Below are positions 580 to 29,808 of a stretch of 35,270 nucleotides of DNA, in pieces. The first letter of the stretch is position 1. Each line of letters begins with the position of its first letter. Below the pieces are notes generated by a model that was not told the origin of the DNA, did not search any database, and saw nothing but the letters and a program-made list of their open reading frames with translations. The DNA is from a virus: positions 1-35,270 of the IMG/VR virus record IMGVR_UViG_3300023108_000084; one strand, written 5' to 3'. The position numbers and the translations under genes were made by a program.

Positions 580-2211
580 ATGTCAATTAAATACACAAAT
601 AGTTCTATAGTTAAGTCTAGTAGAACTAACAAAGGGCCAGGATACCCTAATGATGAGTATCTTAGCCAGGTAAACGAATGGAAACGTAACAGAGCTGTTA
701 TACAAGGGCCTTCTTACACGAAGGATTACGATAGTGTACCTAGTTCTGACAACCTATTATTACCTTTTAATCCAACTATGACACAAGCCCAGTACGATTT
801 TTACAAAGCTGAGGCTGAAGTACCAGGAATTACTTCAGAGTTCTGTAAAATGATTATTGGTGGTCTATTAAGAAAACAACCCTTACTAGAGATAAGTAAT
901 GCACCTGAAGAGGCTAAGAAATGGGTGTTAGACGAGATAGGTTCTGATAAATCTAACCTAATATCGTTCTTATCTTCTGCTTTATGGGAAGAATTACAAA
1001 CATCTAGAGCCTGGATACAAATAGATTACCCAGTTGTAGATCTAGAAGCCCTAAGCCCAGAAGATCGTAAGGAAGTTAAACCTTATCCTGTGTTACATAC
1101 AGCCGAGAATATAGTAAATTGGTCTAGTATGGTAGATTACAAAGGTCAAGTTAAGTTAAATATGCTAATTACTAGATATTTCACTCTACAAGATGACCCT
1201 AACTCACCATATCACCCTAAATACATTGATACGGTTAATGTACACAAGTTAGACGAGAATGGATTGTATATAATTGACAGTTTTATAAGAAACACATCAG
1301 ATACTCCTTCATTTATTGATGGTGGTATTGATTATAACTTTGATCAATTAACTGATGAGTGGATATCGACTGGAAGTAACTCAAATTTATTTATTAATGG
1401 TAAAAGAATGGATTTTATTCCATTTTACCCATTGAATGGTAGTATTGATACTGTTGACCCTATCATGACAGCTATTGTTAATCGTGAGATTGGTCTATAC
1501 AACAAGATATCAAGACGTAACCATTTATTATATTTATCTGCTACATACACGCCAGTGGTGAAATCAGATGCATTAACTGACACAGAGAAGAATGACCTAG
1601 TAAGACAAGGCTTAGGTACTTGGATGTTTGTTAATAAGGATGATAGTGTTGAAACATTATCAACTCCTACTGATGCATTGAAGGATATGGAGGCGGCTAT
1701 AAAGAATAGTTATGATGAATTGACTAGAATTGGTGTTAAGATGTTAAGCCTAGAGCCTAACAACTCCGATCAATCTGGTGTAGCCTTATCTTTAAGAAAC
1801 GCATCTCAGAACGCGGCTTTAGCTAGTTTGAATGCTAAAGTATCTGAGTCTATGAAGAAGATAATTAAACATATGGTTAATTGGAGATATGATATTAATA
1901 TCCAGGAAACTGATATTAGATTTAACTTATCAAGTGACTTCAACCCATCACCTAGGGGTGCTGATTGGATGAGATTGATAACTGAATGGTATCAGAATGG
2001 ATTAATACCAAGATCTACATTTATCGAAGTAGCTAAAAACAATGATGCTCTACCAACTGATTATGACGATACGAATGGCCAAAATGAAATAAGCCAGGAT
2101 GATCGTATTATATCACCAAGAGAGCAATACGAAAAAGAGCTTGCATCTTTAGAGTCTTCTAATGATAATTCTGATGATGACGAAGAACAAGATCAAGCTA
2201 ATGAAGAATAG
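580..2211 (+). CDS. Portal protein (DUF4055-type)
   Basis: This 543-residue protein looks like a DUF4055-family phage portal, the dodecameric ring at the capsid vertex through which DNA is packaged and to which the connector binds. The N-terminal part has the family-like stretch with 'YKAEAEVPGITSEF' and 'GGLLRKQPLLE' (about residues 83-107). The middle is the mixed clip/stem region, and the C-terminal 40 residues are acidic and Asn/Asp/Glu-rich. The start has an AGGAAA ribosome binding site about eight bases upstream (TTTTAGGAAACACAAAATG). It opens the structural operon, and its last codons overlap the SpeD-like gene. Terminase is not in the window, so it probably lies upstream of position 1. 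Confidence 0.85.
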   Translation: MSIKYTNSSIVKSSRTNKGPGYPNDEYLSQVNEWKRNRAVIQGPSYTKDYDSVPSSDNLLLPFNPTMTQAQYDFYKAEAEVPGITSEFCKMIIGGLLRKQPLLEISNAPEEAKKWVLDEIGSDKSNLISFLSSALWEELQTSRAWIQIDYPVVDLEALSPEDRKEVKPYPVLHTAENIVNWSSMVDYKGQVKLNMLITRYFTLQDDPNSPYHPKYIDTVNVHKLDENGLYIIDSFIRNTSDTPSFIDGGIDYNFDQLTDEWISTGSNSNLFINGKRMDFIPFYPLNGSIDTVDPIMTAIVNREIGLYNKISRRNHLLYLSATYTPVVKSDALTDTEKNDLVRQGLGTWMFVNKDDSVETLSTPTDALKDMEAAIKNSYDELTRIGVKMLSLEPNNSDQSGVALSLRNASQNAALASLNAKVSESMKKIIKHMVNWRYDINIQETDIRFNLSSDFNPSPRGADWMRLITEWYQNGLIPRSTFIEVAKNNDALPTDYDDTNGQNEISQDDRIISPREQYEKELASLESSNDNSDDDEEQDQANEE

Positions 2212-2593
2212 TTTATTGATTCATAAGCATTTAATTATTAGAGCTGAGATTAATAATCCGCCAAAAGATACTGAAGAGTTATCTGAATGGATGAAGGAAT
2301 TAACTCAGCTCATTAATATGAAAATAATGCTTGGCCCTTATGTTGCCTATTGTGAAACACCAGGTAACAGGGGTATCACGGGAGTAGCTGTTATTGAGAC
2401 ATCTCATATTGCAATGCATGTATGGGATGAGATAACTCCAGGACTTATGCAATTTGATGTGTATAGTTGTGCTGAGTTTGACCCATATATGATAGCTGAT
2501 AAAATTAAAAAAGATTTTGACGTAACTAAAATAGACTATAAATTTTTAAATAGGGAGACAGGCCTAAAGCCTATACGTCTCAAAAATAAATAG
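2201..2593 (+). CDS. speD: S-adenosylmethionine decarboxylase-like pyruvoyl enzyme (SpeD family)
   Basis: The 130-residue product resembles bacterial class 1B AdoMet decarboxylase, which self-cleaves to make a pyruvoyl group and yields the aminopropyl donor for spermidine. Aligned by eye to the Thermotoga enzyme, the cleavage serine is Ser68 (motif ETSHIAMHVWDE), the catalytic His is His73, the catalytic Cys is Cys90 (DVYSC), and Glu77 is kept. The processing Ser55 equivalent is Thr60. The residue before the cleavage serine is Thr rather than the usual Glu. The open frame extends upstream to 2162, but the family begins near residue 7 (LIHKHLIIRAE), so I start at ATG 2201, overlapping the portal stop by 11 bases. 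Some SpeD homologues have become ornithine or arginine decarboxylases, so the substrate is uncertain. Confidence 0.8.
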   Translation: MKNSLLIHKHLIIRAEINNPPKDTEELSEWMKELTQLINMKIMLGPYVAYCETPGNRGITGVAVIETSHIAMHVWDEITPGLMQFDVYSCAEFDPYMIADKIKKDFDVTKIDYKFLNRETGLKPIRLKNK

Positions 2594-2613: not shown

Positions 2614-2703
2614 ATGAATTGGTTTATATTTAATACAATAATACTAACACTTTTATTCTCACTTGCTTTATGGCAAGGGGGATGGTTTGGAAGGATTTTA
2701 TGA
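2614..2703 (+). CDS. Small single-pass membrane protein (29 aa)
   Basis: A short frame, MNWFIFNTIILTLLFSLALW..., with one hydrophobic helix (about residues 4-20) and a Gly/Trp-rich end (QGGWFGRIL). It has a strong ribosome binding site (AAGGGGG, about eight bases upstream), and its stop overlaps the next start (ATGA at 2700-2703). That tight coupling supports a real gene. Function unknown; it is too short to assign to a holin family. Confidence 0.5.
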   Translation: MNWFIFNTIILTLLFSLALWQGGWFGRIL

Positions 2704-3122
2704 GTAATAATAAGCCTCTAAATATTTCGGAAGAATCTAAGGTCGCAATGCCGATGAAAACCGTAGCTTCACTAATCGCTATGGTCGCAATTGGAACCTG
2801 GGCTTATTTCGGGGTAATAGAGACACAAAATAATTTAAGGTCTAGATTGAACTTAATGGAAAAAGATTTAGTTGAGAATACTGATTTTAGAATCAAGTGG
2901 CCAAGAGGACAATTAGGTTCATTGCCCGCTGATTCTGAACAATTCATGCTTATTGAAGATCTATATAAACAAGTAGAGAAACTTCAAACACAACAAGAAT
3001 CTGGAATGCATAACAAGGTCAATATAGAGTTTTTACAAAAACAAATGAGTAAAGCTTTAGAAGATATTGAAGAGTTAAAAGATTCTCAAAGGATAATAAT
3101 AAATAACAACGGAACACACTAA
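2700..3122 (+). CDS. Membrane-anchored coiled-coil protein, function unknown
   Basis: The 140-residue product has a short polar N-terminus, one transmembrane helix (about residues 20-41, ending TWAYFGVIE), a conserved-looking middle (DFRIKWPRGQLG, SLPADSEQFMLIEDLYKQVE) and a C-terminal coiled coil (about 85-135). The ATG at 2700 is preferred over 2670 because it has an AAGGA site nearby (GGAAGGATTTTATG) and overlaps the previous stop. From memory, very similar sequences recur in marine phages without known function. The type II topology recalls inner-membrane spanins, but no outer-membrane partner is evident. A role in lysis, infection or envelope association is open. Confidence 0.65.
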   Translation: MSNNKPLNISEESKVAMPMKTVASLIAMVAIGTWAYFGVIETQNNLRSRLNLMEKDLVENTDFRIKWPRGQLGSLPADSEQFMLIEDLYKQVEKLQTQQESGMHNKVNIEFLQKQMSKALEDIEELKDSQRIIINNNGTH

Positions 3123-3415
3123 TGATTAAGACACTAGTATTTTTATGCACCATGATGAATGGTGAATTAGTAAAACAGACTATGATGGAATCAAAGGTAG
3201 ATTGTTTAAAAGAAAAACGTAAAATTGAAAGAAAACACATAACTGATACATCTATGACATTTATGTGTGATGAACTAAAAGCGGAAATTAAACATGACGC
3301 TGATGGAAACATACAAATAGTTAAAATAATACAAGATATGAAATCAGGTATGCATGATGATAAACATGGTGGTATTAAATCTGACATATCTAAAATGGAA
3401 CACAAAGGACATTAA
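3122..3415 (+). CDS. Small cysteine-containing protein (paralogue A)
   Basis: This 97-residue protein overlaps the previous stop by one base (TAATG). It has a short hydrophobic start ending in Cys (MIKTLVFLC), a Gly a few residues on, then Cys28 (KVDCLKEKR), Cys49 (FMCDELKAEIKH) and a His/Lys/Asp-rich tail. The same pattern (hydrophobic strand with Cys, Gly, DCL/TCLKxKR, YMC, AEIxH-DG) recurs in the next gene, so these are tandem paralogues. The N-terminus is too short for a convincing signal peptide, and no lipobox fits. Function unknown; the His-rich tail could bind metal. Confidence 0.6.
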   Translation: MIKTLVFLCTMMNGELVKQTMMESKVDCLKEKRKIERKHITDTSMTFMCDELKAEIKHDADGNIQIVKIIQDMKSGMHDDKHGGIKSDISKMEHKGH

Positions 3416-3416
3416 C

Positions 3417-3635
3417 ATGGTAACTAAGGTAGTAGCCTTGTGTCTATTTCTTAGTGGTACTTTAATAGAACATCGTATCCAAGATGATATGCGAACATGC
3501 CTTAAACATAAAAGAGAAGCTGAAAGGCAATATAAGCCTAACTTAACTTATATGTGCGGAAACGTAGAGGCTGAGATTGAACATAACATAGATGGTTCAC
3601 CTACTATTAAGATGATAATAACTAAGGCCGATTAA
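3417..3635 (+). CDS. Small cysteine-containing protein (paralogue B)
   Basis: The 72-residue product begins MVTKVVALCLFLSG. I use ATG 3417 because AAAGGA lies about eight bases upstream; an in-frame ATG at 3354 lies inside the previous gene. It aligns by eye with paralogue A: Cys9, then Cys28 (RTCLKHKREAER), Cys46 (YMCGNVEAEIEHN) and DGSPTIKMI against DGNIQIVKI. It lacks A's His-rich tail. The paired genes suggest local duplication. Function unknown. Confidence 0.6.
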   Translation: MVTKVVALCLFLSGTLIEHRIQDDMRTCLKHKREAERQYKPNLTYMCGNVEAEIEHNIDGSPTIKMIITKAD

Positions 3636-3752: not shown

Positions 3753-5507
3753 ATGATAATAAATGATAGAGATAATTTACTAACAGATTTTGGTAAAACA
3801 ACATTAAAAGATAGGTATTTATTACCAGAGGAAAATTCACCACAAGAAGCATTTATGAGAGCGGCTAAAGCTTACTCTGATAATGATGAGATGGCTCAAA
3901 GGATTTATGACTATGCATCTAAATTGTGGTTTATGTACTCAACGCCAGTACTAAGTAACGGAGGTACAGGTCGAGGTATGCCTATTTCATGTTTTTTAAA
4001 TTATGTAGGCGATAGTAGAGAGGGATTAACAGCTCATTATACTGAGAATGCCTGGTTAACATCTATTGGTGGTGGTATTGGTGGATATTGGGGTGATATT
4101 AGATCAGATGGTACATTAACATCTGGTGGTTCTCAATCATCTGGTTCAATACCGTTCTTACACGTAGTTGATAGTGAGATAATGGCGTTCTCTCAAGGTA
4201 AGACTAGAAGAGGAAGTTATGCGGCTTATATGGATATTACTCATCCTGAGATCTTAGAATTCTTAGATATAAGAAAACCAAGTGGTGGTGATATACACAG
4301 AAAATGCCTAAACTTACATCATGGTATTAATATTACTAATGAGTTTATGGAATTGATTGAGAAGTGTATTTCTGAACCTACTTATGATGATACCTGGAAA
4401 CTTATTGACCCTCATACAAAAGAAGTTGTTAAAGAAGTTTCTGCAAGAGAGTTGTGGCAAAAGATATTAGAAAATCGAGTTGCTACTGGTGAGCCGTATG
4501 TCTGTTATATTGATCATATTAATGATGCATTACCTGAAACACAAAAAGCTTTAGGTTTAAAAGTTAATCATTCTAATTTATGTACTGAGATAACATTACC
4601 AACAGATGAAGATAGAACTGCTGTGTGTTGTTTATCTAGTGTAAATCTTGAGACATATGATGAGTGGAAGGATAATAAATTATTTATATCTGATTTAGTT
4701 AGATTTTTAGATAATGTACTAACTAACTTTATTGAAAATGCACCTGATAGTGTATTCAGAGCTAAATACTCTGCAACACAAGAAAGATCTATTGGTTTAG
4801 GGGCTATGGGCTTTCATGCATACTTACAGAAATGTAATATACCATTTGAGTCTGCTTTAGCTAAAGCCAAAAACCTACAGATGTTTAAACATATCAAAGC
4901 TGAGGCTGTAGCTGAAAGTAAAAGATTAGCTATTAAGCGTGGTGAGGCTCCTGATATGGAAGGTACTGGAATGAGGAATGCTCATTTACTTGCTATTGCA
5001 CCTAATGCCTCAAGCTCAATTATTTGTGGTACTACATCACCTTCAATTGAGCCTTACAGAGCTAATGCATATGTGCAAAAGACTATGAGTGGTTCATTCT
5101 TAGTTAAAAATAAATATTTAGAAAAACTATTAGAACAAAAAGGAATTAACAATGATAAAACGTGGACTTCAATACTTGCTAACAGGGGTTCGATATTGCA
5201 TCTCAAAGATCTATCAGATTATGAAAAAGATGTTTTTAAAACTAGTATCGAAATTAACCAACAATGGATAATAGAACACGCGGCTGATAGGCAAGAGTTT
5301 ATATGCCAAGGCCAAAGTGTTAACGTTTTTGTACCAGCTGATGTGAATATAAAAGAATTACATGATATTCATTACCTGGCCTGGAAGAGAAAACTTAAAA
5401 CATTATACTATTGTAGAAGTGAGGCTATTAAAAGAGCTGAACTTGTATCATTAAAAGTTGAAAGAACAATAATACCTGAGGCTGAATGTTTGGCTTGTGA
5501 GGGATAA
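3753..5507 (+). CDS. nrdA: Class I ribonucleoside-diphosphate reductase, alpha subunit
   Basis: NrdA reduces ribonucleoside diphosphates to deoxynucleotides, with the radical supplied by NrdB. At 584 residues it is much shorter than E. coli NrdA and starts directly in the barrel region, so it has no N-terminal ATP cone; dATP feedback inhibition is therefore probably lost. Catalytic features seen (numbers approximate): Cys80 (MPISC), the NLCTE motif near 275-279 (Asn, thiyl Cys, Glu), the second redox Cys near 292 (AVCCLSS), the radical-transfer Tyr pair near 551-552 (KTLYYCRS) and a C-terminal CLAC pair for re-reduction. AAAGG lies about 13 bases before the ATG. It forms a cluster with nrdB, split only by a 39-aa membrane protein. 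No glutaredoxin is seen. Confidence 0.95.
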   Translation: MIINDRDNLLTDFGKTTLKDRYLLPEENSPQEAFMRAAKAYSDNDEMAQRIYDYASKLWFMYSTPVLSNGGTGRGMPISCFLNYVGDSREGLTAHYTENAWLTSIGGGIGGYWGDIRSDGTLTSGGSQSSGSIPFLHVVDSEIMAFSQGKTRRGSYAAYMDITHPEILEFLDIRKPSGGDIHRKCLNLHHGINITNEFMELIEKCISEPTYDDTWKLIDPHTKEVVKEVSARELWQKILENRVATGEPYVCYIDHINDALPETQKALGLKVNHSNLCTEITLPTDEDRTAVCCLSSVNLETYDEWKDNKLFISDLVRFLDNVLTNFIENAPDSVFRAKYSATQERSIGLGAMGFHAYLQKCNIPFESALAKAKNLQMFKHIKAEAVAESKRLAIKRGEAPDMEGTGMRNAHLLAIAPNASSSIICGTTSPSIEPYRANAYVQKTMSGSFLVKNKYLEKLLEQKGINNDKTWTSILANRGSILHLKDLSDYEKDVFKTSIEINQQWIIEHAADRQEFICQGQSVNVFVPADVNIKELHDIHYLAWKRKLKTLYYCRSEAIKRAELVSLKVERTIIPEAECLACEG

Positions 5508-5633: not shown

Positions 5634-6587
5634 TTGAGTTTATTTAAGACAAGAACATATTATAAGCCATTTGATTATGAATGGGCGTTTGAGGCTTATG
5701 ACACAATGCAAAAGATGCATTGGTTGCCCAGTGAAGTACCATTACATGAAGATGTACGTGACTGGAATGATAAACTTACTATTGAAGAGAAGAATTTAAT
5801 ATCACAAATATTAAAGTTCTTTACTCAAGGTGATGTTGATATAGCTCAGGCTTATCTAGACAGATATATACCTAAGTTTAAACCACCTGAAGTAAGAATG
5901 ATGTTAAGTTCTTTTGCATCAAGTGAGGCTAATCATGCTCATAGTTATTCATTATTAAATGATACAATAGGTGAAACACACTTAACTGACTATAAAGCAT
6001 TCCAAGAGTATAAAGAAATGCAAGATAAACATGAATACTTATTTAAAGATAAAGGTAAGGGTACTGAAGGTCTTATAAAAGACATTGCATGTTTTTCGGC
6101 TTTTGGTGAAGGCTTACAATTATTTGCATCATTCGTTATGCTACTAAACTTTCAAAGGTTTGGTAGAATGAAGGGTATGTGCCAAATAGTTACTTGGTCA
6201 ATTAGAGATGAAACTCATCATGTTGAAAGTATGATAAAATTATTCCATGCATTAGTAAAAGAAAACCCTAGTGTGTGGACTGAACAATTTAAAGCTGACA
6301 TATACCAAACAGCTAGAGATATGGTTGAACTAGAAGATAAATTTATAGATCTAGCATTTGATATGGGTGGTATACGAGGGTTAAAACCTGAAGAGGTTAA
6401 ACAATATATAAGATATATTGCTGATAGGCGACTATTACAATTATCTTTAAAACCAAATTACAAAGTTAAAGAGAATCCGTTAAGTTGGCTAGATTGGGTA
6501 ATTAATGGCGTTGAACACGCAAACTTTTTTGAAAATAGAGCTACTGAATATAACAAAGGTTCGATAACAGGAAGTTTGTGGGGATAA
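5634..6587 (+). CDS. nrdB: Class I ribonucleoside-diphosphate reductase, beta subunit
   Basis: NrdB houses the dinuclear metal site and the radical used by NrdA. By alignment to E. coli the ligands are Asp67 (TQGDVDI), Glu98 and His101 (SSEANHAHSY), the Glu in FGEGLQLF, and the Glu and His in IRDETHHVES. Tyr105 sits exactly seven residues after Glu98, as the radical tyrosine does (E. coli Glu115/Tyr122), and the Asp-to-Glu spacing of 31 also matches. That supports a tyrosyl-radical class Ia/Ib type. The start is TTG with AAGGAA three to four bases upstream; no nearby ATG fits. Its stop overlaps the next gene (TAATG). Confidence 0.93.
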   Translation: MSLFKTRTYYKPFDYEWAFEAYDTMQKMHWLPSEVPLHEDVRDWNDKLTIEEKNLISQILKFFTQGDVDIAQAYLDRYIPKFKPPEVRMMLSSFASSEANHAHSYSLLNDTIGETHLTDYKAFQEYKEMQDKHEYLFKDKGKGTEGLIKDIACFSAFGEGLQLFASFVMLLNFQRFGRMKGMCQIVTWSIRDETHHVESMIKLFHALVKENPSVWTEQFKADIYQTARDMVELEDKFIDLAFDMGGIRGLKPEEVKQYIRYIADRRLLQLSLKPNYKVKENPLSWLDWVINGVEHANFFENRATEYNKGSITGSLWG

Positions 6588-6808
6588 TGTCTAATTTTTT
6601 ATTAACTATATTTGTGTGTATGAGTACTAGTGGAACTTGTGCACCAGGTATATTGCAAGAGACTAAGTACAATGATTTATATGATTGTCTAGATGCTGGT
6701 TATCATAGATCTATAGAGGCTATAGCTGAAATAGGTAGAGAAGATACTAATGAGTTTGGATTTTTAGTTAGATTTACTTGTACTAAGGAGAAGATAACGG
6801 AGGCTTAA
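6587..6808 (+). CDS. Small cysteine-containing protein (related to paralogues A/B)
   Basis: This 73-residue protein is translationally coupled to nrdB (TAATG; the in-frame ATG at 6578 lies inside nrdB). It starts with a hydrophobic strand containing Cys (LLTIFVCMSTSGTC), then has YDCLDAGYHRS and a final FTC. The layout of hydrophobic-Cys, Gly, D-C-L and a late Cys resembles the two genes at 3122-3635, though identity is low. Small proteins of this kind are common in marine phages, as far as I recall, and uncharacterised. Disulfide bonding or metal binding is possible. Confidence 0.6.
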   Translation: MSNFLLTIFVCMSTSGTCAPGILQETKYNDLYDCLDAGYHRSIEAIAEIGREDTNEFGFLVRFTCTKEKITEA

Positions 6809-6809
6809 C

Positions 6810-7049
6810 ATGGCTAAGTATAAAGGCAGAACTGTAAAACTTAATAAACCTATGAGGGGTGATGTTAAGAAATTTAAAGTTTTTGTAAAGAATGCAAGCG
6901 GTAGAGTTGTTAAGGTTAACTTTGGCGACCCTAACATGAGAATACGTAAAAGTAATCCAAAAGCTCGTAAATCTTTTAGAGCTAGACACAATTGTGCTAA
7001 CCCAGGGCCTCGGACAAAAGCCAGGTATTGGTCGTGCAGGAAATGGTAA
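6810..7049 (+). CDS. Conserved small basic protein of marine phages
   Basis: The 79-residue, strongly basic product begins MAKYKGRTVKLNKPMRGDVKK and ends with a Cys/Trp/Arg motif (SFRARHNCANPGPRTKARYWSC). It has a very good GGAGG site about nine bases upstream. I recognise the C-terminal motif as recurring near the capsid genes of marine phages, but I know of no assigned function. The high charge and Cys residues would fit a nucleic-acid-binding or virion-internal protein; that is inference. Confidence 0.75.
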   Translation: MAKYKGRTVKLNKPMRGDVKKFKVFVKNASGRVVKVNFGDPNMRIRKSNPKARKSFRARHNCANPGPRTKARYWSCRKW

Positions 7050-7054
7050 TTCAT

Positions 7055-7153
7055 ATGGCTTATAAGAAAAAGAAATACAAAGGTAAATCTTGTTGGAAAG
7101 GTTATCGTAGAGGTAAAGGTAACAGTTGTATTAAAATGAAAAAAGGAAGATAG
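7055..7153 (+). CDS. Very small Lys-rich protein (32 aa)
   Basis: The frame MAYKKKKYKGKSCWKGYRRG... encodes 32 residues, of which about half are Lys or Arg, with two Cys. It sits directly behind the 79-aa basic protein and has AGGAAA about twelve bases upstream. Its basic composition and Cys/Trp use match that neighbour. Function unknown; it may be a nucleic-acid-binding virion or scaffold-associated peptide. Confidence 0.5.
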   Translation: MAYKKKKYKGKSCWKGYRRGKGNSCIKMKKGR

Positions 7154-7154
7154 G

Positions 7155-7244
7155 ATGGCTAGATGTTGTTGCGATATAAGAAGAGTAAGAAAACAAAAGA
7201 TGACGATAAGAAGAAATCGAAAAAGCGTAAGAAGAAAAAAATAA
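7155..7244 (+). CDS. Very small Cys/Arg-rich protein (29 aa)
   Basis: The frame MARCCCDIRRVRKQK... has an AAGGAAG site about eight bases upstream and starts two bases after the previous stop. It begins with three consecutive Cys and then becomes Arg/Lys-rich. A second frame, shifted by two bases (7163-7267), also encodes a very basic peptide, and I cannot be certain which is translated. This frame has the better start signal. Confidence 0.4.
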   Translation: MARCCCDIRRVRKQKMTIRRNRKSVRRKK

Positions 7245-7267
7245 AACGTATAATAAGGAGAAAATAA
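7163..7267 (+). CDS. Alternative Lys-rich frame overlapping the Cys/Arg-rich peptide
   Basis: ATG at 7163 opens MLLRYKKSKKTKDDDKKKSK..., 34 residues, ending one base before the next gene's ATG. It has no ribosome binding site of its own but could be reached by reinitiation or by frameshifting from the 7155 frame. Its length and end point fit the operon spacing better than the 7155 frame; the start signal fits worse. Confidence 0.25.
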   Translation: MLLRYKKSKKTKDDDKKKSKKRKKKKIKRIIRRK

Positions 7268-7268
7268 A

Positions 7269-7493
7269 ATGTCGATTGAAAATAAAACAGAAGAAAAAGT
7301 ATTCACTATAAACAATGTTGAATACAAGGAAAGTGAATTATCACTAGAGACTAAGAATGATGTTATTATTCTTAATGATCTTAAACAAAAGAAATTAGTT
7401 AGATCTATTGAATTAGAACAAACTGATATGCTTATTGCTAGCTATGGTAAAAGAATTGATGAAGCCTTAGCTAATATTAAAAAGGACAATTAA
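7269..7493 (+). CDS. DUF6447-like small phage protein
   Basis: The 74-residue product starts with a short beta-hairpin-like segment (FTINNVEYKESELS) followed by a long amphipathic helix (LNDLKQKKLVRSIELEQTDMLIASYGKRIDEAL). This matches my memory of the small DUF6447 proteins of marine phages (hairpin 'I.GKEY...LS...K' then 'L..A...R..Y...L'). AAGGAG lies about nine bases upstream, and the gene ends four bases before the MuF gene. Function unknown. Confidence 0.6.
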   Translation: MSIENKTEEKVFTINNVEYKESELSLETKNDVIILNDLKQKKLVRSIELEQTDMLIASYGKRIDEALANIKKDN

Positions 7494-7496
7494 TAA

Positions 7497-9431
7497 ATGT
7501 CAATAAATGATGATATATTATCTAGAGAGCTGAAACACCGTGCTCTTTTGAGTCTTTACGAGAAGAAACTAGATAATGACCTAACTAAAGTCATGTCATC
7601 CCATAAAAAACGTTTAGTTAATAGTACACTAAAGAACGGTATGAAGGGTTCTAATGCCCTCAACCGTGCTTTGGGTATAGAAACACGAAAAACTTATAGA
7701 CGTATTTATAGAGAAGCTCTTAAAGAACTAAAACAATTAGCTAAAGTAGATGCTAAGTTTCAAGCTAGTACTTTAAATAAAGCTTTTGGTAAAGTTTATA
7801 GAGCTAGAGTGTATACGGGATTGAAAGTTAATGACTTAATAATTAATTCCGCAGGAACATACTCTCAACAAATAACATCTATAAGTTTAGCTCAACAGAG
7901 AAGAATTAAGAGTATAGTTAAACAAGGTATGGTTGACAATCTTGCTGTTAATAAGATTGCTGACAATATTGGTAGGACTGTAGATTTACCACAGGCCCAA
8001 CTAAGAACCTTGTCCAGGACTGCTATAACTGAAACATCTACAACAGTTAATAAGGCAACTTATAAATTGAATGAAGATGTGTTAGACGGTTATGAGTATG
8101 TGGCTACACTAGACTCCAGGACTTCTCTTATTTGTGCTAATCTTGATGGTAGAGTATTTAGATTAGATGACCCTAAAGGTATTAGACCACCACAACATTT
8201 TAATTGTAGGTCTACTACTGTACCTATTGTTAAATCTCATGAAGATCTAATTAATACTGATAGTAATAGAATTAGTAAAAGAAGATTGAAGAGAATGACT
8301 AGAGGTAAGAGAGCATCTTTTAATGGTCAAGTACCAGCTGAAACTAGATTTGAAGACTTTTTTACTAAACAAGATAATGATTTTAAATTAGCTGTGTTAG
8401 GTAATCAAAAAAGAGTTGATATATTTAATACAGGTAAATTAAAATTTAAACAATTTAGTACTAAAGATGGTAAGTTAGTATCTATTGATAGATTAAATGA
8501 ATTACTTAATGGTGTTAAAAAGCAAGCTAGAAAAACTGCTAAAACTATTATTAAGGTAGGTACTTTAACAAATGTACCTTCTTATAAAGAATTAAAAATA
8601 GTTGATAAGAATACTGCTAAGAAGAGTTTAAATGCTACTTTAAAACAAGCATCTGAAGACCCTAGATACAGAGTAACTAATGATGATTATGGTTATCCGT
8701 TTAGAAGATTTGCAAGTAGAAAATCTGATAAATTAGGTAGAGTAAATGGTGCAGGTGGTAAGGTTAGTGATGAGGCTGTTTCTGTTGTTAATCAATTAGT
8801 TCAAGAAACAAATGCTTTAGCTGATAAATATAATGTACCTAGAATTAGAGGTGTAGTGTTTAAAGATTATAACGCTATTGCATCTATGGGTGATGGTGAG
8901 TTAACTATAAATTATACTTATTTTAATAAACTTGATAAGAAATCTGAGTATGGTGGTTTCTTCGCTGGTGCATCAAATTATAATGTTACAAAAGCTAAGG
9001 CTTTTAAATTAGGTGATGATGTATCTGGTGAAGTTCTTAACTATAATGTAACTAAATATAAATATGATATGGATTATAGAAAAAGAGTTCAAAATACTTG
9101 GGTAAGACCGCATAACGGTTATCATTATTTCGATGACCCTATGGATAGAGCAAGAAATACAGTTTATCATGAGTTTGGACATCAAATACATCAAAATTTT
9201 AAACTAACTAGGGATACAAGATTTAGTCCTTATTTAGAAGATAAAATGGATGAAGTGATACCAAACGCTACTCTAAAAACTAAAAGACCTGGTGCTAGTA
9301 GATATGGTAATTCTGATAACCAGGAATGGTTTGCTGAAAACTTTGCGTTATATGAAATGAATCGTAAAGATTTAGTTGACCCTGATTTTATAGAACTGTT
9401 TGAAAAAGAGGTAGTAAATGCCAAGAAGTGA
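7497..9431 (+). CDS. MuF-type head protein fused to a C-terminal zinc-metallopeptidase-like domain
   Basis: The 644-residue protein carries a phage MuF / SPP1 gp7-type head morphogenesis domain at about residues 120-245, with the family's RTAITETSTTVNKA segment, DGYEYVATLDSRTS and PPQHFNCRSTTVPI. These proteins enter the capsid and are thought to be ejected with DNA. The C-terminal part holds HEFGHQIH (His558, Glu559, His562), an HExxH zinc site, followed about 50 residues later by QEWFAENFALYE, where Glu614 could be the third ligand. That order is the gluzincin layout. MuF proteins with C-terminal toxin domains are an established polymorphic-toxin class, so this may be a virion-delivered protease effector; a virion-internal protease is an alternative. 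AAGGA lies upstream, and the C-terminus overlaps the next gene by 14 bases. Confidence 0.85.
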   Translation: MSINDDILSRELKHRALLSLYEKKLDNDLTKVMSSHKKRLVNSTLKNGMKGSNALNRALGIETRKTYRRIYREALKELKQLAKVDAKFQASTLNKAFGKVYRARVYTGLKVNDLIINSAGTYSQQITSISLAQQRRIKSIVKQGMVDNLAVNKIADNIGRTVDLPQAQLRTLSRTAITETSTTVNKATYKLNEDVLDGYEYVATLDSRTSLICANLDGRVFRLDDPKGIRPPQHFNCRSTTVPIVKSHEDLINTDSNRISKRRLKRMTRGKRASFNGQVPAETRFEDFFTKQDNDFKLAVLGNQKRVDIFNTGKLKFKQFSTKDGKLVSIDRLNELLNGVKKQARKTAKTIIKVGTLTNVPSYKELKIVDKNTAKKSLNATLKQASEDPRYRVTNDDYGYPFRRFASRKSDKLGRVNGAGGKVSDEAVSVVNQLVQETNALADKYNVPRIRGVVFKDYNAIASMGDGELTINYTYFNKLDKKSEYGGFFAGASNYNVTKAKAFKLGDDVSGEVLNYNVTKYKYDMDYRKRVQNTWVRPHNGYHYFDDPMDRARNTVYHEFGHQIHQNFKLTRDTRFSPYLEDKMDEVIPNATLKTKRPGASRYGNSDNQEWFAENFALYEMNRKDLVDPDFIELFEKEVVNAKK

Positions 9432-27900: not shown

Positions 27901-29808
27901 ATGTCAATAACTTATGGAACATTTACAGATGAGTACGGTAATGTAGGTTTGATAGGCCCACAAGGCCCAGTAGGCCCAACAGGCCCTCAAGGCCCAACAG
28001 GCCCAACAGGCCCTACAGGTTTAACAGGAGCAACTGGCCCACAGGGTGTACAAGGCCCTAGAGGAGATCAAGGTGTATCTATAACAGGCCCAGTAGGCCC
28101 ACAAGGCCCTCAAGGCCCAACAGGCCCAAAGGGTGATAAATGGGATTTTAGTGAATACGTTACAAGTACTGCAATAACAACTAATGACTGGGTATTGTGG
28201 TCTAGTGATAATACATTTGTAGAATACAAAATTAGATACTCAGATTTTTTAACAATATCGCAAGGTGCTGTACAAGGTAATGCTGTACAACAAGCTAATG
28301 CATATACTGATCAAGCTGTAGCAAACTTAGTTAATGGTTCACCAGCTCAACTTGATACACTTGGAGAAATATCAACAGCATTAAATGATGATGCTAATCT
28401 TGCTAGTACTTTAACAGCTAGTATTGCAACTAAATTAGCTATTGCTGATTTTAATACTACATTTGATACAAGACTTGCAACTAAGACAACTGATGATATA
28501 GCTGAAGGAAGTGCTTTATATTACACTGAGGCTAGAGTTAATGCTAACATAGCAAGTAAAACAACTGACGATATAGCTGAAGGTGGTAATTTATATTACA
28601 CTGACACAAGAGCTTATGCGGCTTTTGATCAAAGGTTATCTGTTAAAACTACATCTGATTTAGCAGAAGGAAGTAATTTATACTTTACAAATGCTAGAGT
28701 TGATAGTGCTTTTGATACTAGATTATCAACTAAAACTACTGATGACTTATCTGAAGGTAGTGTTAACTTTTATTATACTGATACTAAAGTTGATACAAGA
28801 ATTGCGGCTAAGAGTATTAGTTATTTAAATGATGTTAATGTTAGTAATGCACAAATAGGTCAAGTATTAAAATGGAATGGTTCTGTATGGGAAAACCAAA
28901 CAGATCAAACTAATGCTGATACAGATAGTTTACCTGAAGGTTCAAACAATTTATATTATACTGATGAAAGAGTAGATGATAGAATATCTAACTTATTAGT
29001 AGCTGGTTCTAATGTTACATTTAATTATGATGATGCTAACAACCAATTAACAATTAGTGCTAATAGTGTTGGTGGTTATGATTTAACAAATAATGATCTA
29101 AGTGATATTGGAAACGTAACAGTCACTTCACCTTCTAATGGTCAAGTATTAAGATACAATGGAAGTGGTTGGGTTAATGCTGGTGATGAAGAAACATTAT
29201 CAAATAACACAACAAGTGATTTAGCTGAAGGTTCTAATTTATATTATACTGATACAAGAGTTAGATCTGCTGTAAGTGCAACTATTGGTACTGCGGGATA
29301 TAATCAATCTACTGGTGCTTTTAGTATACCTAATAGTACAAATCATATATCTGAGGGTTCTAAATTATTTTATACTGATAGTAGAGTTGATAGTAGAATA
29401 AATTCTCAGTTTAAATTAGATGAAGATGATATGGCTTCTAATTCTGCCAGTCATTTTCCAACACAACAATCAGTTAAAGCTTATGTAGATTCACAAGTAT
29501 CTCATGGTACTTATGACTCATCAGTTAAAACATCGAATTTCACTGTCTCTTCTGGAGATCAATGGACAGGATATTTAATAGATACAGCGACTACGAGTAT
29601 AACTGTAACTTTACCTACTACACCAAATCATATGCAAAAGGTAAGATTTTTGGATGTTGGTGGTAATTTATCATCAAATAGTTTAACAATAAACCCTAGT
29701 GGAAATAGTATTCAGGGTGGTTCTGGTAATTTGAACGTGGCTTTAAATAATGCGGCATTTGAATTAATGTACGTAAATTCTTACGGCTGGTTCTTAACAA
29801 CTAAATAA
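27901..29808 (+). CDS. Collagen-like tail fibre with 'EGSNLYYTD' repeats
   Basis: The 635-residue fibre has a short N-terminus ([12 protein letters not shown]) and a Gly-X-Y collagen-like stretch (residues 19-79, broken once), which should form a triple helix. A shaft follows with seven copies of the [22 protein letters not shown] repeat and a segment ([24 protein letters not shown]) that also occurs in the 24537 fibre. The C-terminal 95 residues ([23 protein letters not shown] to [16 protein letters not shown]) are paralogous to the end of the next gene. AAAGGAA lies upstream. The end is probably a trimerising or receptor-binding tip. Confidence 0.85.
27955..28137 (+). repeat. Collagen-like Gly-X-Y coding repeat
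   Basis: Gly at every third position, mostly GPQ, GPT and GPV, with one short break near GVSIT. All 14 Gly-Pro pairs are coded GGC-CCN, while Gly not followed by Pro in the same tract uses GGT or GGA. The repeat can expand or shrink in frame. Confidence 0.9.

Follow-up and report, generated by a model that had tools for sequence, protein, structure and literature searches.

The general question on repurposed SpeD homologs was largely answered in 2023, as judged from the accessible text of two reports (PMC9992855, PMC10407285). The SpeD of pelagiphage HTVC201P decarboxylates arginine with a kcat/Km of 290 M-1 s-1, and in the accessible part of that report activity on ornithine or lysine was not found and no spermidine was restored in a speD deletion strain (PMC9992855). 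According to the same text, the agmatine peak of E. coli was threefold higher with BAR31446, a close HTVC201P homolog, ornithine is the substrate of related phage proteins from freshwater and Lake Baikal, one of which (UCP01) takes both arginine and ornithine, and the ODC homolog of a Pelagibacter is an arginine decarboxylase clustered with an arginase/agmatinase homolog (PMC9992855). The ornithine decarboxylase-type SpeDs (SpeDC) were described by four diagnostic residues, Gln, Thr, Phe and Tyr, and a Pro was reported to separate AdoMetDC from ADC (PMC10407285). With respect to the hosts, the accessible text of PMC11107197 describes a functional AdoMetDC fused to an aminopropyltransferase in the SAR11 strains HTCC1062 and HTCC7211.

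The window analysed is the whole of a 35,270-nucleotide stretch of virus DNA (positions 1 to 35,270 of IMG/VR record IMGVR_UViG_3300023108_000084), with a GC content, taken in 1.5-kb steps, of 0.289-0.373. Judging from its sequence, a speD-like gene in this window adds a further predicted member, most likely an arginine decarboxylase, to the already known SpeD-derived phage decarboxylases. The gene lies in the following neighborhood:

580..2211, plus strand: portal protein gene, the end of which overlaps the speD-like start by 11 nt (phrog_145, 2.1e-49)
2201..2593, plus strand: SpeD-fold ORF, predicted pyruvoyl-dependent decarboxylase of 130 aa (Pfam, 3.5e-16; fold; dN/dS)
2670..3122, plus strand: small gene of unknown function, located between speD and nrdA (phrog_20984)
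3122-3415 and 3354-3635: two overlapping tandem ORFs, an apparent gene duplication, unknown function (both phrog_24646)
3753..5507, plus strand: ribonucleotide reductase (RNR) large subunit, nrdA (Pfam PF02867, 1.7e-116)
5634..6587, plus strand: RNR small subunit, nrdB (Pfam PF00268, 2.2e-73)

At the protein level the portal, nrdA and nrdB products of the phages Kolga and Aegir are 87, 93, and 90% identical to those of the window. No speD-like match was detected in the Kolga or Aegir records, where the gap between the portal-matching gene and nrdA is only 203 bases, and the gene is thus accessory in this lineage. Kolga infects HTCC7211, and on kinship to Kolga and Aegir alone the host of the window's phage is probably also SAR11 (Pelagibacter). 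Elsewhere in the window, the head morphogenesis protein (7497-9431) is only 49% identical to its Kolga/Aegir match, vs 87-93% for portal and RNR, a divergence that may mark a mosaic boundary; a 187-codon ORF oriented opposite to its neighbors (6764-7327, minus strand) gave no Pfam or PHROG match, and a 635-codon ORF (27901-29808) matched collagen-like repeats.

The program-made list of ORFs puts the start of the speD-like frame at 2162; the named pelagiphage homologs begin at the level of the M..H.H motif, which supports the ATG at 2201 as the start. In HTVC109P (MH598805.1, 3004-3375) the SpeD start given in GenBank is internal (3109, 88 codons), and both the open frame and the homology reach about 35 codons further upstream, including the conserved N-terminal histidines. 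The translated ORF matched Pfam AdoMet_dc (PF02675) at 3.5e-16, with 59.9 bits vs a curated cut-off of 25, and phrog_3125 at 3.3e-17, and one viral scan returned 366 tblastn-confirmed relatives, the best 80 of these 366 being used. Judged from these matches, homology of the ORF to SpeD is far beyond chance. The score with the AdoMetDC equivalog model TIGR03330 was 50.5 bits, below its cut-off of 75.65.

An AlphaFold2 model, built on an alignment of 73 sequences (the window protein and fetched relatives), showed the class 1b SpeD fold with a mean pLDDT of 91.9 and a pTM of 0.85. Structural searches, which also included Foldseek, gave class 1b AdoMetDCs as the best solved matches (1tlu, Z 14.5, rmsd 2.0 over 111 residues, 22% identity; 2iii, Z 13.2). 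The sequence around the predicted cleavage site of the 2201-2593 ORF is GNRGITGVAVIETSHIAMHVWDEITPGLMQFDVYSCAEFD, residue 66 of the ORF is Glu, and the positions on which the rest of the analysis turns are listed below:

2378..2380, plus strand: Thr60, at the position of Thermotoga Ser55 (Thr in 176/176 sequences with Thr before the serine and 17-residue spacing, and in 30/45 homologs with an acid there)
2399..2401, plus strand: Thr67, immediately N-terminal to the pyruvoyl serine (an acid, Glu or Asp, in each of the four published phage AdoMetDCs retrieved)
2402..2404, plus strand: Ser68, at the place of T. maritima Ser63 in the alignment, predicted to be the site of self-cleavage and of the pyruvoyl group
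2417..2419, plus strand: His73, catalytic/processing histidine predicted by alignment (T. maritima His68)
2426..2440, plus strand: turn DEITP (residues 76-80), where the model places the two extra residues (spacing 17 vs 15)
2450..2452, plus strand: Gln84, six residues before Cys90, a class-specific position by residue counts
2468..2470, plus strand: Cys90, catalytic/processing cysteine predicted by alignment (T. maritima Cys83)

The original prediction had described a SpeD-like enzyme that keeps the pyruvoyl serine, the histidine and the cysteine and is altered around its self-cleavage site, and the alignment agrees with both halves of this description: Ser68, His73, and Cys90 are present, Thr stands directly before the serine (position -1) and at the Ser55 position, and the His-to-Cys distance is 17 positions vs 15 in T. 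maritima SpeD, with the two additional residues modeled in the turn that connects strands 68-75 and 81-89. The interval originally assigned to these features (2384-2473) encloses all of them except Thr60, which falls just outside. Thermotoga Ser55 is a processing residue, and Thr at the equivalent position had been listed among the changes; it is not unusual, since Aquifex 2iii and 30 of the 45 relatives with an acid at -1 have Thr there as well, and Thr60 was ruled out as a sign of altered processing for the same reason. As for the residues expected of an AdoMetDC, Thr67 takes the place of the acid before the serine, a criterion of our own drawn from four phage enzymes, T. maritima and Aquifex rather than from a published definition, and Asp76 replaces the Pro of the HTWPE motif, which was equated here with the distinguishing Pro of the literature. 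The reported AdoMetDCs phiN3 and phiYS40 likewise lack the HTWPE Pro.

How far these changes extend was examined in an alignment of 289 distinct stretches, window included, taken from viral scans, named phages, plasmid records and 396 genomes from the phylum to which NCBI assigns one MAG (Actinomycetota); among the class-level relatives of that MAG, SpeD was found in 2 of 40 genomes. The sets were found by similarity and include near-copies (L001 is identical to the window), so that the counts describe this collection and not a random sample. The first class, defined by Thr at -1 and 17-residue spacing, both therefore fixed by definition, comprises 176 sequences, among them the window protein and HTVC201P. 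All 176 have Thr60, the Ser-His pair at the cleavage site and W-D-E, thereby keeping the canonical HTWPE residues Trp75 and Glu77; Ser68, His73, Cys90, Asp86, and Arg118 are invariant, Gln is found six positions before the cysteine (C-6) in 174, and position -5 is occupied by Ala (119), Gln (28) or another residue (29). When the 17-residue spacing alone is considered (177 aligned rows, window included), Thr60 is present in 177/177 and Thr before the serine in 176/177, the sole exception (L228, 67-432) having Lys. The second class (Thr at -1 with other spacing, which is 15 in 62) has 65 sequences, with Gln at -5 in 62, Phe after the His in 55 and Tyr at C-6 in 60, and His follows the cleavage serine in only 3/65 vs 176/176 in the first class. 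The third class, 45 sequences with an acid at -1 (44 Glu, 1 Asp), has 15-residue spacing throughout (45/45), Ala at C-6 in 32 and the HTWPE Pro in 33; three aligned rows fall outside all three classes. Two SpeD-like proteins (L288 and L292) have a Tyr aligned at the catalytic Cys position and no acid at -1. The changes at the self-cleavage site are thus real and yet not peculiar to one enzyme; by these residue counts they are lineage signatures of a large phage clade.

The four SpeDC residues were assigned here, by inference, to Gln at -5, Thr at -1, Phe after the His and Tyr at C-6, on the basis of second copies of tandem speD genes (four genomes), a Leptospira speD - second speD - speE cluster and phage sequences. 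An earlier assignment of the Gln to -2 was dropped, as the same three sources show it at -5. Pattern searches with Gln at -2 had returned no loci in one case, 20 phage loci in another (19 with a SpeD ORF of the 17-spacing class, QTSH, none being detected in L244) and two genome-contig loci in a third, one of which is not SpeD. With the revised positions, all four residues are present in 54 of the 63 usable rows of the second class, three in 7 and one in 2, two further rows without a readable His-Cys spacing (truncated or misaligned) being counted among the five “other” rows. In the first class, 148 sequences have one of the four and 28 have two; the window protein has Thr alone and HTVC201P has Thr and Gln. 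An acid stands at -1 in all four phage AdoMetDCs fetched (S-PM2, P2559S, phiYS40, phiN3), phiN3 having Asp together with the Gln, Phe, and Tyr of the SpeDC set. Judged from the few characterised enzymes behind this comparison, Thr in front of the serine seems to mark a shift in substrate and not a defect of self-cleavage. The reverse sign is less strict: four uncharacterised rows with an acid, as well as phiN3, fall outside the canonical group, suggesting that an acid at -1 need not mean AdoMetDC.

A SpeDC-type protein from Leptospira (L310, 1012-1878) carries an N-terminal extension of about 170-180 residues that gave no Pfam match. In five viral contigs (L330, L331, L333, L344, and L373) a SpeD-like gene with an acid at -1 adjoins a SpeDC-type gene, pairs that could yield putrescine and decarboxylated AdoMet side by side. 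Microcystis phage MaAM05 (MW495066.1, L092) has two speD homologs, speE and agmatinase in a row, an arrangement that would form a nearly complete route from arginine to spermidine should the non-canonical speD encode an ADC.

The original prediction had left the placement of the protein to phylogeny. A quick tree of 90 representatives recovered the window's class as one clade of 25 rows with support 99. In a more careful tree of 80 rows, from which 10 long-branched or odd rows were left out, including the published AdoMetDCs P2559S and phiYS40, the window and HTVC201P share this 25-row clade (100/99), and 18 canonical AdoMetDC-type rows lie on one side of a branch supported at 100/100 with the window outside. 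The protein is therefore found outside the canonical clade and inside that of a characterised arginine decarboxylase, which bears out the earlier view that repurposed homologs matter for this SpeD-fold enzyme. Within the clade, the window's sub-branch is separate from that of HTVC201P (a 6-row group, 100/95). The clade joins the SpeDC-like rows (99/89 as a group) and phiN3 at 97/85; after removal of the signature columns it was still recovered at 99/99, as was the canonical group at 100/100, and a polytomy of the clade, the SpeDC-like rows and a third group took the place of the sister relation. A topology in which the clade shares one side with the canonical SpeDs was not rejected by an AU test (p 0.398). 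On these trees, membership in the HTVC201P clade is firm.

Based on the available evidence, the gene product is best read as a pyruvoyl-dependent amino-acid decarboxylase that processes itself and belongs to a Kolga-like siphophage probably infecting SAR11, and L-arginine is most likely its substrate, with a probability of roughly 0.6. It would be a neofunctionalised class 1b SpeD homolog whose proenzyme self-cleaves between Thr67 and Ser68, aided by His73 and Cys90, creating a pyruvoyl group at the new N-terminus; a basic amino acid would be decarboxylated in place of AdoMet, most likely L-arginine to agmatine, and host enzymes would convert the agmatine to putrescine during infection. HTVC201P is active with the same Thr-Ser site, from which we infer that such a site can form the pyruvoyl group, and since a Pelagibacter ODC homolog is itself an arginine decarboxylase (PMC9992855) and HTCC7211, the strain infected by Kolga, already has an AdoMetDC (PMC11107197), the putrescine step would be a useful one for a phage to add. 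Against arginine, the window protein sits in a different sub-branch and departs from HTVC201P at two class-marking positions (Ala vs Gln at -5, Val vs Ser after His73), and UCP01 takes both arginine and ornithine; in addition, the clade retains Trp75 and Glu77, and the AU test cited above applies here too. Arginase/agmatinase was found in 0 of 25 long contigs carrying the window's type, and spermidine synthase in 0 of 25 long contigs of its clade, any of which may be a fragment.

The reading that follows most closely, still an unlikely one, is that of an ornithine decarboxylase similar to SpeDC, or of a dual arginine/ornithine enzyme, which would process itself in the same way and, with ornithine, form putrescine directly. 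Thr at -1 is shared with the class with 15-residue spacing in which the four SpeDC residues predominate (54/63 usable rows), the full-alignment tree sets the two side by side (97/85) and UCP01 uses both substrates (PMC9992855, accessible text); however, the window protein has the Thr without Gln at -5, Phe after the His or Tyr at C-6, the sister relation disappears with the signature columns, and, as far as the available text of PMC9992855 goes, HTVC201P, the sole clade member with published kinetics, showed no detectable ornithine activity and the Pelagibacter ODC homolog acts on arginine only. It can also be proposed, as tentatively as the previous reading, that the clade is a distinct large subfamily of pyruvoyl-dependent amino-acid decarboxylases, mobile among phages of differing make-up, often located next to RNR genes and marked by [ED/Q]-T-S-H, the two-residue hairpin insertion, W-D-E and Gln at C-6, within which the Kolga-like branch, which lacks the Gln at -5 of the assayed HTVC201P, may differ in substrate profile (dual Arg/Orn or other), with -1 and C-6 as the specificity switch.

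Selection bears on whether the gene encodes a working enzyme. Among the 25 nearest relatives, dS was finite and non-zero in 8; these gave dN/dS values of 0.067-0.104 at a dS of 1.5-2.5, thus near saturation, and 387 clade pairs of 85-97% identity and dS 0.1-1.5 gave a median dN/dS of 0.093 and a maximum of 0.46; the speD-like gene is under purifying selection. A degenerate SpeD relic that no longer catalyses, or an enzyme that serves some other purpose, would agree with the several residues that differ from canonical SpeD and with the close relatives Aegir and Kolga doing without the gene, and is nevertheless improbable in view of the low dN/dS, the five residues invariant in 176/176 and the confidently predicted fold; the relic was set aside as unlikely on the first two grounds. 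Least of all is the protein likely to be an ordinary AdoMetDC boosting spermidine synthesis with the host aminopropyltransferase, a very improbable reading to which the Pfam family, the retained Trp75 and Glu77, the missing HTWPE Pro of phiN3 and phiYS40 (so that loss of this Pro alone is no exclusion) and the AU result lend something, and which is opposed by Thr at -1 where the four phage AdoMetDCs have an acid, the TIGR03330 score, the position outside the 18 canonical rows, the failure of HTVC201P to restore spermidine (PMC9992855, accessible text) and the AdoMetDC already functional in HTCC1062 and HTCC7211 (PMC11107197, accessible text).

The proximity to RNR genes recurs in the clade. 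With one locus taken per distinct clade sequence, the flanks reached about 1.9 kb to either side in 99 viral loci (67 more were too short). An RNR match lay within 2 kb of the clade's gene in 39 of the 99 and was absent from the other 60; nrdA is downstream in 21 of the 39, and in 18 nrdA is upstream and nrdB downstream. None of 36 SpeDC-type phage loci (19 more were short) had an RNR match within 2 kb, in searches with queries drawn from window-clade loci, which would miss other RNR types beside SpeDC-type genes. The difference between clade and SpeDC-type loci gave a Fisher p of 6e-7, a value that overstates independence as the loci are related. Identity between the two RNR types is only about 25%. 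The neighbors of the speD-like gene differ among L014, where it lies between a ferredoxin-like gene and nrdB, L032 and L078, indicating that it occurs in phages of different make-up. An RNR-speD link was not seen in the passages of PMC10783043 examined.

In SAR11, an extremely abundant ocean bacterium, phages may redirect the polyamine synthesis of the host at the step that yields putrescine, using enzymes still labeled AdoMet decarboxylase in the records. The residue before the serine, the residue at C-6 and the His-Cys spacing offer a simple sequence criterion for doubtful phage SpeD labels, and the recurrent RNR proximity hints, short of proof, at a link between polyamine and dNTP supply in these phages.

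Among the closest known systems, HTVC201P (AXH71538, PMC9992855) shares with the window the IETSH site, Thr at the Ser55 position, the two-residue insertion, H-x-W-D-E and Gln at C-6, and its nrdA/nrdB, near speD, are 84% identical to those of the window. The two SpeD proteins are 41.0% identical over 95% of the query and differ in having Gln at -5 and Ser after the His in HTVC201P and Ala and Val in the window; HTVC201P is an Autographiviridae phage in which speD adjoins nrdA, whereas the window is Kolga-like and has three small ORFs between them. With SpeDC, as described in the accessible text of PMC10407285, the protein has in common the SpeD fold family, the Thr before the pyruvoyl serine, and the His and Cys, and it differs in having one of the four diagnostic residues, Ser-His after the cleavage site and a His-Cys spacing of 17 instead of 15. 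The SpeD of Sinorhizobium phage phiN3, which PMC9992855 (accessible text) reports to be a genuine AdoMetDC in spite of its grouping with phage ODCs, resembles the window protein in being a phage SpeD outside the canonical group in the present trees, and departs from it in Asp at -1, Gln at -5, Phe after the His, Tyr at C-6 and the spacing of 15. T. maritima AdoMetDC (1tlu, 1vr7) has the same fold, Ser, His, and Cys, at 22% identity, and the window protein departs from it by Thr instead of Glu at -1, Asp in place of the HTWPE Pro and the two-residue insertion.
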